Source: an uncultured Prochlorococcus sp. (GTDB taxonomy: Bacteria > Cyanobacteriota > Cyanobacteriia > PCC-6307 > Cyanobiaceae). From it: DNA of 33,730 nt. The stretch is from positions 1 through 33,730 of the forward strand of contig CACJPB010000012.1 of NCBI GenBank assembly GCA_902595175.1, in the 5' to 3' direction. A model generated the notes under the pieces. That model was not told where the DNA came from, searched no databases, and saw only the letters and a program-made list of their open reading frames with translations. Shown piece by piece: positions 10,482 to 13,079 of the stretch (positions are counted from its first letter, which is position 1; each line of letters starts with the position of its first letter). The position numbers and the translations under genes are program-made.

Positions 10482-11639
10482 TTAAGAACGAACCTGCACA
10501 GGCATAACTAAATAAGTAAAAGAATTGAGATTATCTTCTGGTACAAAAACAGCTGGAGTAGTTGCAATATTGCACTTTAAAAGTACATTTTCAGAAGTAA
10601 TAACTTTTAAACCTTCTAAAAGATATCTAACGTTAAAAGCAATATCAAAATTTTCTCCATCGTAAGAAACAGGTATTAATTCGTTCGCGTTTCCAATATC
10701 TTGTGCATCTGCACTGATAGAAGCTAAATCTGTATTATCTAATTTAATCTTAACAACACTACTTTGCTGATCGGCTAAAACAGCAATTCTTTCAAGTGCA
10801 TCAATTAATTTTTTTGTATTAAAATTGATAATTTTAGAAAAAGTATCAGGAATTAATTGTGAATAATTAGGATAAGTACCTTCAAGAGTCCTTGTCGTAA
10901 TTATTTGACTAGAAGAAATAAATACTACTTGACCTTTGTCATAAAAAAGTTTTATTGAATTTTCTGAGCTTCTCAAAGATACTAGTTTTTCAATTTCCCT
11001 TAATGATTTAGTTGGAATAGTTACTGACAAGTCACTATCATTTAAAGATAAGTTCTCTTTATTTTCGATATGTTCTTCATTACCAATTAAAGCAACAGCC
11101 AATCTGTGTCCATCTGTAGAAGCAGACTCTAGATAATTTGGTTTAAAAGTAAAGTTAACGCCGGTAAGTAATTGCTTTGAGTCATCATTACTACTAGCAA
11201 AAATGGTAGATTTTAAAGCTTTTAAAAAAGAACAAGGATCAATATTCAAAGAAGTCCCGCTTTCAACAAATGGCAAATTAGGATATTCATCAGAGGGAAT
11301 CCCCTTAAGATTAAAAGAACCTCTATCACTTTTTATTAAAATATTATCAGAATTACCATCAACTTCTAAAGAAACAGGAGTTTCATTAGGCAATTTGTTT
11401 ACTATTTCGGATAAAAGTTTTGAAGGTATAGTAATAGCTCCACTATTTTTAACAGTTCCATCAAAAGAAGTTTGAATTCCTAAATTAAGGTCAAATCCTG
11501 TCACGCTAATTTTATTAGTTCCTTCATCGGCTGTTAAAAGTATGTTTGCAAGAATTGGATGTGTTGGTCTTGAAGCAACTGCTTTGCTCACTAGTTGTAT
11601 AGCATTATTTAATTCATTTTGATTACAAAGAATTTCCAT
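10482..11639 (-). CDS. dnaN: DNA polymerase III beta sliding clamp DnaN
   Basis: DnaN forms the dimeric ring that holds DNA polymerase III on its template. The 385-residue length fits three clamp folds. Recognisable pieces are the N-terminal LNNAIQLVSKAVASRPTHPILANILL, the first-domain end GVNFTF, the TDGHRLA motif at about 175-181, EGTYPNYSQLIP (about 270-281) and the C-terminal YLVMPVQVR, which contributes to the partner-binding pocket. It starts at an ATG at 11639 facing the gene-free origin segment and is followed after one base by the PRC-barrel gene. A dnaN next to the chromosomal origin is the usual cyanobacterial layout, with dnaA elsewhere. Confidence 0.97.
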   Translation of the reverse strand: MEILCNQNELNNAIQLVSKAVASRPTHPILANILLTADEGTNKISVTGFDLNLGIQTSFDGTVKNSGAITIPSKLLSEIVNKLPNETPVSLEVDGNSDNILIKSDRGSFNLKGIPSDEYPNLPFVESGTSLNIDPCSFLKALKSTIFASSNDDSKQLLTGVNFTFKPNYLESASTDGHRLAVALIGNEEHIENKENLSLNDSDLSVTIPTKSLREIEKLVSLRSSENSIKLFYDKGQVVFISSSQIITTRTLEGTYPNYSQLIPDTFSKIINFNTKKLIDALERIAVLADQQSSVVKIKLDNTDLASISADAQDIGNANELIPVSYDGENFDIAFNVRYLLEGLKVITSENVLLKCNIATTPAVFVPEDNLNSFTYLVMPVQVRS

Positions 11640-11747
11640 CGGAATTTGGAACTTTTACAAATACAATATACTTTTTTCGTAAATTAAATTCAATAAATTA
11701 ATTTTTTACTTTATTTCTAATAAAAAAAGAAAAATAATTAAAAAATT

Positions 11748-11781
11748 TAGTAGTAGTAGTTCCTGTGGGAACTGTGGAATT
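11748..11781 (-). other. Origin unwinding module: two DnaA boxes, GC-rich spacer, DnaA-trio
   Basis: Read on the minus strand, the order is AATTCCACA, GTTCCCACA, GGAA, then CTA repeated four times. The strand opposite the CTA repeats therefore carries four 3'-GAT-5' triplets. This matches the DnaA-trio consensus 3'-[G/A]A[T/A]-5' of the basal unwinding system described in B. subtilis: DnaA boxes, a short GC-rich step, then trios guiding DnaA onto single strand. The two boxes abut without spacing. An inverted repeat, AGTTCC-TGTG-GGAACT at 11758-11773, overlaps the box and the first trio. Beyond the trio lies an A/T run towards dnaN, as expected for the melting region. Confidence 0.7.
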
Positions 11782-11842
11782 TTTAAAACAAATAACTAGT
11801 CAACTTAGTTTACGCACATAAAAATTTGTGAAAAACATTTTT

Positions 11843-11897
11843 TATTTGTTGAATAGTTTTTTATTTATTTGAAAAATTTGAATTTATTCAACAAATA
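11843..11897. repeat. 13-bp perfect inverted repeat at the origin core
   Basis: TATTTGTTGAATA at 11843-11855 is exactly the reverse complement of TATTCAACAAATA at 11885-11897, with 29 A/T-rich bases between the arms. A third partial copy (TTCAACAAAT) lies at 11918-11927 on the plus strand. Each arm contains a degenerate DnaA box (TATTCAACA, 7/9), so the repeat is probably a pair of inverted protein-binding sites rather than a transcript hairpin. It marks the point where box orientation flips. Confidence 0.75.
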
Positions 11898-11975
11898 GAA
11901 TGACTTATTTTTTATTTTTCAACAAATGATGTTTGTTTTTTAGTTGATTTCCACAGACAGTATTTGTTTTGGATT

Positions 11976-13079
11976 TTAATAACCTAAGATTTTAGTTATA
12001 TTTTTTAACGAAGGTTCAATATTTTTTCTAAAAATAGCATCATTATTTTTTATTGCGCAATCAGGATCTTTCAATCCGTTTCCAGTAAGAACACAAACAA
12101 TAGTCGATTCTTTTTGAATTCTATTTTTATTTTTAATAAGTCCAGCAACTGATGCAGCACTAGCAGGTTCACAAAATACCCCCTCTTTGGCAAGTATTTT
12201 ATAAGCATTGATTATTTCTTCATCTGTAACTGATTGGAAGTCTCCTTTACTTTCTTTTCTTACTTTTTTTGCTTTTTCTCTATTTACAGGATTACCTATT
12301 CTTATTGCAGTTGCAATTGTTTCTGGATCTTTAACTATTATATTTTTTACTAATGGAGCAGATCCTTCGGATTGAAAACCCATCATTATTGGTAATTTTA
12401 AATTTCTTTTTATTTTTGAATATTCTTGAAATCCCATCCAATAAGCAGTTATGTTTCCTGCATTGCCCATTGGAATACAAAGCCAATCAGGAGCTATACC
12501 TAAGTCATCAACTATTTCAAAAGCTGCTGTCTTTTGTCCATGTATTCGATATGGATTAACTGAATTCACAAGTTCTACAGGATGTTTTGAAGATAAATCT
12601 CTAACTATTTCAAGTGCCTTATCAAAGTTTCCATTAATTGATATTATTTCAGCGCCGTACATTAATGCTTGTGCAAGCTTTCCTTGTGCAACAAATCCTT
12701 CTGGGATTAAAACATAAGGTTTTAATCCTCCTCTAGAAGCATATGCAGCTGCAGCAGCAGAAGTGTTTCCAGTGCTTGCACAAATTACTGCTTCACGGCC
12801 TTCTTCTTTTGCTTTGCTAATTGCCATAGTCATACCACGATCTTTAAAAGATCCTGTTGGATTAAGGCCATCATATTTTAAAAAAACTTTTGTCCCATTT
12901 CCAATTAAGTTGCTAATTGATTCACTTAAAATTAGTGGTGTATTTCCTTCATTGAGGGAAATAATAGGAGTTTGCTTTGTAACTGGGAGATATTGTTTAT
13001 AAGCTTCTATTAGACCTGGCCATCTTTTTTTTCTGTAATTAATACGCAGTTTATTTTTGATTTTATTTAATAACACCAT
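11976..13079 (-). CDS. thrC: Threonine synthase
   Basis: ThrC is the pyridoxal-phosphate enzyme that converts O-phosphohomoserine to threonine, the last step of the pathway. The PLP lysine is K79 in [11 protein letters not shown], and the phosphate-binding loop [20 protein letters not shown] lies at about 99-118. NEGNTPLI (43-50) and PMGNAGNI are further fold-type II landmarks. The 367-residue length is that of the short, bacterial class of threonine synthase. It starts at an ATG at 13079. Its stop at 11976 borders the origin, and transcription runs towards it, against the fork. The DUF1400 gene lies 6 bases upstream on the same strand, so the two may share a transcript. Confidence 0.95.

Follow-up and report, generated by a model that had tools for sequence, protein, structure and literature searches.

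A probable DnaA-dependent unwinding element at the Prochlorococcus chromosome origin, and the bases of its DnaA-trios

The gap between dnaN and thrC in the genome of an uncultured Prochlorococcus very probably contains the DnaA-dependent unwinding element (BUS) of the chromosome origin, an assignment made from sequence and by analogy with studied systems. The support observed for it consists of sequence, spacing, polarity and conservation, a nearby GC-skew switch in a relative with a closed genome, and a dnaA gene, elsewhere in this assembly, that retains the base-reading residues. The window, the whole stretch of 33,730 nucleotides that was analysed, is contig C12 of an assembly (G000) of 1.11 Mb in 38 contigs, 66% complete. 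Within a known system the element is well formed and unexceptional, and it is already known from Synechococcus elongatus that a cyanobacterial BUS works in vitro; new here are an A↔C pattern at the middle base of the DnaA-trios and a clade with serine and lysine at DnaA positions 187 and 202.

Layout of the dnaN-thrC gap

The minus strand from 11781 to 11748 reads AATTCCACA-GTTCCCACA-GGAA-CTACTACTACTA, and the plus strand from 11748 to 11781 reads TAGTAGTAGTAG TTCC TGTGGGAAC TGTGGAATT; both coordinates and letters had been given exactly in an earlier, sequence-only reading of this DNA. The features of the gap and its flanks are:

10482..11639, minus strand: dnaN, DNA polymerase III beta clamp (TIGR00663 at 328 bits, cut-off 137.65)
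11665..11693, minus strand: dnaN promoter-like site TTGAAT-17-TATATT (9/12 consensus match)
11700..11747, no strand assigned: A/T-rich tract beyond the trios, almost without G or C, the putative duplex-unwinding region (from sequence)
11748..11759, plus strand: four DnaA-trios, 3'-GAT-5' four times, from the boxes towards dnaN (from sequence)
11760..11763, minus strand: 4-nt spacer GGAA (length constant in template-matching loci; sequence variable, A/T-rich in the genus)
11764..11772, minus strand: DnaA box 2, GTTCCCACA, trio-proximal and abutting box 1 (sequence and genus conservation)
11773..11781, minus strand: DnaA box 1, AATTCCACA, distal from the trios (sequence and genus/class conservation)
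11827..11835, minus strand: weak outer DnaA-box-like 9-mer TTTTTCACA, oriented like the tandem boxes (1 mismatch)
11947..11955, plus strand: outer DnaA-box-like 9-mer ATTTCCACA near thrC, in the opposite orientation (1 mismatch; in a block conserved over 81 loci)
11976..13079, minus strand: thrC, threonine synthase (TIGR00260 at 321 bits, cut-off 167.1)

The two boxes abut, are co-oriented, and each lies two mismatches away from the cyanobacterial box TTTTCCACA. On the minus strand the trio array is 5'-CTA-3' four times, with trio 1 at 11757-11759, 4 nt past box 2 and 13 nt past box 1. The polarity is that of the BUS: the boxes lie 5' of the CTA array, and on the complementary strand the trios extend away from them. 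The element thus combines boxes with at most two mismatches, a first trio within 16 bp of a box at a gap of about 4 bp, at least three 3'-NAN-5' trios, here all in the preferred 3'-GAT-5' form, and the polarity by which a BUS is recognized. Its spacing and polarity equal those of the published BUS, for which PMC8287927 provides a precedent in vitro from S. elongatus, and the interpretation as a BUS is supported. The arrangement had also been called textbook, a description that suits the architecture but not the boxes, each of which is a weak match by itself. Tandem boxes together with two outer box-like 9-mers in the dnaN-thrC gap, beside a replication gene, are also what is looked for in an oriC.

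Conservation of the element and competing explanations

The dnaN of the window is 91-98% identical to those of the 80 relatives kept for comparison (78 labelled Prochlorococcus and 2 Synechococcaceae), the best being HOT208_60m_813B04. Stretches upstream of dnaN were scored against the template TTTTCCACA-NTTTCCACA-NNNN-CTA, worth 20 points, which includes trio 1 and excludes trios 2-4. In the genus, dnaN was found in 151 of 200 genomes and 110 upstream stretches were taken, of which three were too short (L012, L032, L083) and 107 were scored. A score of at least 16 was reached by 105 of these 107, by 31 of 40 family loci and by 27 of 40 class loci, against a top score of 14 in 561 mononucleotide shuffles; the two genus loci below 16 are L035 and L054, the latter still with CTACTAATACTA. 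When at least three C-T/G-N triplets are demanded as well, 105 genus, 31 of 40 family and 25 of 40 class loci are retained; with at least three CTA triplets, the family and class counts are 18 and 22 of 40. The opposite strand of the same 187 stretches served as a control and scored 16-18 in 16 of them, so the template score without the trio count is not decisive. Fifteen of these hits fall on the outer DnaA box beside thrC, with GACA and CTA after it in most cases, and one is a second box pair. Three CTA triplets were present at none of the 187 best opposite-strand sites, versus 105 of 105 on the reported strand.

Column by column, conservation was measured over 81 nearer loci (those numbered up to L030 or from L055 among 102 with a score of at least 16 and at least 330 bp). 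The trios are the most conserved of the eight blocks compared, at 1.91 bits per column, against 1.85 for box 1, 1.69 each for box 2 and the dnaN leader, 1.21 for the A/T-rich tract and 0.99 for the spacer. CTA occupies trio 1 in all 105 genus loci, trio 2 in 103, trio 3 in 98 and trio 4 in 92, so that at least three perfect triplets are present in every locus and four in 83. The comparison proposed earlier, to see whether the TAG repeats and boxes hold at a fixed spacing across relatives, has thereby been made, and the trios do not vary freely. Box 1 is AATTCCACA in 70 and TTTTCCACA in 17 of the 105 genus loci, and TTTTCCACA in 22 of the 27 class loci at template score; box 2 is GTTCCCACA in 32 of the genus loci, GTTTCCACA in 30 and ATTTCCACA in 21. 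Across the genus, box 1 starts 135-161 bp upstream of dnaN.

The spacer behaves differently. GGAA is found in only 2 of the 105 genus loci, one of them the window, and mean spacer G+C is 20% in the genus, 69% in the family and 86% in the class, with 50% in the window; the commonest class spacer is GCCC. The GC-rich step that had been proposed between boxes and trios is therefore conserved in other cyanobacteria, but not in the genus in which it was proposed. From these sequences, the step was probably ancestral and then lost in the A/T-rich Prochlorococcus, with boxes and trios retained. The published search program of PMC8287927 fixes the length of the spacer only, so a GC-rich spacer is not a defining feature there.

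Among the genomes of the window's family (L113-L152, L303-L362), box 1 is strongly drifted in the GC-rich genera; box drift in the GC-rich Cyanobium is noted alongside the DoriC and Ori-Finder predictions (PMC6323995, PMC10225481). In one genome the deposited record begins within box 2 (G119:C1:1-29), which leaves the remaining box pair at the other end of the record, and automated origin scans of such records may miss the element.

The gap contains further repeated motifs. At the outer site 11827-11835, a TTTTTxCAC core is visible over the 81 loci. Between the tandem boxes and thrC, at 11840-11940, a TTTGTTGAA/TTCAACAAA word recurs in both inverted and direct orientation, its copies being partly conserved over the 81 loci and possibly weak DnaA sites. 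After the outer box near thrC, which points away from dnaN, comes a conserved GACA and, in many loci, a single CTA, which is GTA in the window, where the whole unit spans 11947-11962. This unit of box, 4 nt and one trio on the opposite strand is also present in L004, L007, L037, L041, L055, L064 and others; it may be half of an element for the opposite direction, or a chance arrangement.

Not all loci carry the element. Nine of the 40 family loci and 13 of the 40 class loci score below 16, and two of the 27 class loci above 16 (L183, L188) have the box pair without trios. Among the 13 low class loci, L165 has a box, 4 nt and four CTA triplets, L168 is shifted by one base and L159 has drifted boxes with trios; no recognisable box pair with trios was found upstream of dnaN in L167, L171, L176, L177, L179, L181, L182 and L184-L186. 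A dnaA match is absent from 2 of the 40 class genomes (G559, G565), both lacking the element upstream of dnaN. Loss of dnaA was considered as the general cause of the missing class elements and rejected: it covers 2 of the 13 low loci, and as the other 11 genomes have dnaA, it does not alone explain absence beside dnaN. The class loci without the element would fit the repeated loss of DnaA dependence in cyanobacteria described in PMC7198777.

DnaA is able to regulate genes through its boxes, and the element lies 109-142 bp upstream of dnaN. It might thus be an operator or promoter part that controls transcription of dnaN and merely resembles a BUS. Nevertheless, a separate promoter-like site lies closer to dnaN, at 11665-11693, at least 90% conserved at most columns over the 81 loci, even if shuffled sequences contain a mean of 3.2 sites of this quality. 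In the 27 template-matching class loci the element is anywhere from 150 to 660 bp from dnaN, while the register of boxes, spacer and trios is kept in 25 of them. The middle bases of the trios also lean to the base-capture rule discussed below, for which an operator would have no reason. We consider control of dnaN as the sole role of the element very unlikely. The -35 hexamer of the promoter-like site adjoins the A/T-rich tract that would be expected to melt.

A palindrome offers another explanation: the plus strand reads AGTTCC-TGTG-GGAACT at 11758-11773, and a scan calls a stem at 11756-11775 with a T-rich tail on that strand, for which shuffles give a mean of 0.0, as expected for an intrinsic terminator or a palindromic protein site. 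The stem, however, requires the GGAA spacer present in just 2 of 105 genus loci, and is rejected on that ground; its arms have at least 5 pairs in 24 of the loci and 2-4 pairs in the other 81, where boxes and trios stay. A terminator or palindromic protein site is hardly credible here, even less so than control of dnaN.

Counting boxes was rejected as evidence for an origin: a scan of the window for TTWTCCACA with up to one mismatch misses both tandem boxes and finds no enrichment (29 found, 28.0 expected). With up to one mismatch, CTACTACTACTA occurs once in the window, where 0.10 occurrences are expected, and the assembly (1.11 Mb, 66% complete) contains a single instance of the joint pattern, even when up to three mismatches are allowed. 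Chance resemblance within an A/T-rich gap, which the weakness of the single boxes and the unenriched box-like 9-mers would allow, is already contradicted by conservation over genus, family and class and by the single joint match, leaving it a negligible probability. Points against the BUS itself include the two mismatches in each box and the lack of a conserved GC-rich step in the genus, along with the opposite-strand scores and the loci without the element.

The probable origin and its predicted opening

The assembly of the window is fragmented; strand asymmetry was sampled in a closed relative (G049), in 20 samples of 20 kb taken 88 kb apart, which locates a switch only to that precision. 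GC skew is positive in 9 of the 10 samples of the half that starts with dnaN and negative in 9 of 10 of the other half; for T-A skew the figures are 10 of 10 and 8 of 10. Rotation of the record to dnaN was the depositor's choice, so the skew, and not the start of the record, is the evidence for the origin.

The dnaA gene of G000 is not beside dnaN but on a separate contig, C4. Its product retains the residues corresponding to E183, N187, I190, R202, K222, E223 and E228 of B. subtilis DnaA, with N196 replaced by D. A BUS calls for a DnaA that carries trio-reading residues of the initiator specific motif, as this one does. According to PMC10721633, the residues listed contact the trios or the fork in B. 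subtilis; in the structure described there, DnaA captures bases one and two of every trio and leaves the third facing out, the trio G being held by Arg202 and Glu228 and the middle A by Asn187 via its amino group. Because the G000 DnaA keeps the base-capture residues, the same mechanism as in B. subtilis would be expected.

Binding, base capture, melting and helicase loading can be outlined by analogy with the work on B. subtilis and S. elongatus. Two DnaA molecules would bind the abutting boxes at 11773-11781 and 11764-11772, setting their AAA+ domains over the 4-nt spacer. More DnaA would then join the plus strand along the four 3'-GAT-5' trios, from 11759 to 11748, and the G and A that begin each trio would be flipped into pockets between neighbouring DnaA molecules. 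Opening would affect 11748-11759 first and next the A/T-rich tract towards dnaN, where the helicase would be loaded. The start of unwinding had been put at 11681-11747; this range needs correction, as the trios would belong to the region that opens first, and it overlaps the promoter-like site. The outer box-like sites at 11827-11835 and 11947-11955 could supply DnaA, as upstream boxes feed DnaA in at the B. subtilis origin (PMC6669920).

The element resembles the B. subtilis BUS (DnaA-boxes #6/#7 with DnaA-trios) in having two co-oriented boxes, a short spacer and 3'-GAT-5' trios on one strand, leading away from the boxes into A/T-rich DNA, all beside dnaN. It differs in that the Prochlorococcus boxes are weaker, the genus spacer is A/T-rich, there is no adjoining dnaA, and the trios of the window number four and are all perfect GAT, against six of mixed sequence in B. 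subtilis. The nearest tested case is the BUS of S. elongatus, from the same phylum: according to PMC8287927, its DnaA opens its own BUS scaffold in vitro, and opening depends on the boxes and trios as well as on the arginine finger and the isoleucine that binds ssDNA, whereas ATP is not required. The S. elongatus oriC is near dnaN, and dnaA is essential (PMC7198777). Two genomes taken to be close to S. elongatus (L161 and L162, f11/g50) read TTTTCCACA-TTTTCCACA-GCCC-CTA-(C/T)TA-CTA-CTG; they have a GCCC spacer and consensus boxes, in contrast to the A/T-rich spacer and drifted boxes of Prochlorococcus. DoriC and Ori-Finder predictions put cyanobacterial oriC in the same place, by dnaN, with boxes of the same family, TTTTCCACA (PMC6323995, PMC10225481). 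Neither the Prochlorococcus element nor the trio middle-base change is reported in the available parts of these two papers. In the literature searched, we found nothing on DnaA-trios in Prochlorococcus and no melting or DnaA-binding data for Prochlorococcus; a supplementary list of 1755 predicted BUS sequences may include the element.

Evolution of the trio bases

In the GC-rich genera of the family, the trios read CTA CGA CTA CGG, CTA CGA CGA CGG, CTA CTA CGA CTG or similar on the box strand, which is 3'-GCT-5' or 3'-GCC-5' on the captured strand. The 156 box-strand middle bases of 39 family loci, unconditioned on trios 2-4, comprise 117 T, 34 G, 3 C and 2 A. Changes were counted by parsimony on one FastTree tree of dnaN with 60 tips (61 loci were tried, and G202 was left out for lack of a readable frame), and the counts represent one among several equal reconstructions. 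The middle base changed 31 times, of which 27 are T↔G (A↔C on the trio strand), the others being one T to A, one T to C, one G to A and one G to C. The third base changed 20 times, with 19 A↔G and one A to T, and the first base once. On the assumption of independent events, the contrast in transitions between middle and third base has p = 8e-11, and the share of T↔G among changes involving T (27 of 29) differs from that at dnaN fourfold sites (117 of 625, p = 6e-17) and at T columns of the boxes (4 of 42, p = 4e-13).

Of the 59 tips besides G000, 48 matched a selection pattern that demands C as the first base of trios 2-4 and A as the third base of trio 2, the middle base being free; it fixes some neighbours of the middle base, which biases the count for position 1 and some of the count for position 3. 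At position 3 of trios 3 and 4 only, 16 of 17 changes on the same tree are transitions. An unconditioned subset of 34 tips (26 family tips fetched before selection on the trio pattern, and 8 Prochlorococcus) gives 11 T↔G among 15 middle-base changes, with two T to A, one T to C and one G to C, and 6 transitions among 7 third-base changes (p = 6e-4, again for independent events). In 28 further, likewise conditioned genomes among the matches listed, T or G occupies the middle of trios 2-4 in all 84 cases; listed matches that fell within coding sequence distant from dnaN were excluded from this set, which shares G233 with the 40 family loci and includes six genomes with unchecked closeness to dnaN (G252, G274, G618, G637, G651, G655).

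At the middle base, B. subtilis tolerates C in place of A better than it does G or T, and this holds in vitro as well as in vivo (PMC10721633). These sequence comparisons suggest that middle-base evolution in the family leans to the A-or-C rule measured there. Against a strict rule, two g30 genomes of the tree and the fetched locus L148 (AAA) have a trio-strand T at trio 3, in one case (G228) despite a DnaA with N187, and G221, G290 and G261 (L136) each have a G in one trio.

Nineteen Prochlorococcus genomes (loci L366, L367, L368, L372, L393-L401 and L403-L408), forming one clade with a support of 0.98, have a DnaA with S187 and K202 in B. subtilis numbering; the other 65 DnaA proteins that were read have N187 and R202, and the class DnaA of L446, unreadable, was left out. 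Alanine at 187 or 202 causes a severe growth defect in B. subtilis (PMC10721633). In the 105 genus loci there are four middle-base changes, all at trio 3 (TAA in G050, CCA in G010, CAA in G198 and G105) and all in this clade, in which 14 of the 18 genomes with a scored element have T in the middle of all four trios. The link between clade and change is suggestive, and statistically weak: with membership assigned by dnaN range, 4 of 20 versus 0 of 85 loci (Fisher p 0.001), and where both DnaA and element were read, 4 of 18 versus 0 of 10 (p 0.27, or 0.11 in an earlier form), both uncorrected for kinship.

On balance, we favour a two-letter middle code in nature. The GCT/GCC trios of the GC-rich relatives (for instance CTA CGA CGA CGG on the box strand) would work because DnaA reads the amino group common to A and C, and not adenine as such; the published trio search, which requires a middle A, would tend to miss or under-score such origins; and in the N187S and R202K clade the reader would have changed and the middle-base rule loosened at trio 3. 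Deviant trios without a middle adenine were already suspected in PMC8287927, and in PMC8235120 the middle T on the complementary strand is described as highly conserved. No report of natural trios with a middle C was found in the portions available of PMC8287927, PMC8235120, PMC10721633, PMC6323995 and PMC10225481.

The middle-base rule derived from B. subtilis origin mutants (PMC10721633) recurs as the main direction of change among the genera of one family. The pattern also suggests that searches demanding a middle A could overlook trios. One clade has a DnaA changed at two base-reading residues, yet has mostly kept GAT trios. The comparison provides natural evolutionary support for the DnaA base-capture model, plus two variants that can be tested. 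Prochlorococcus is among the most abundant photosynthetic organisms, and the element gives it a precise, testable place of origin opening.
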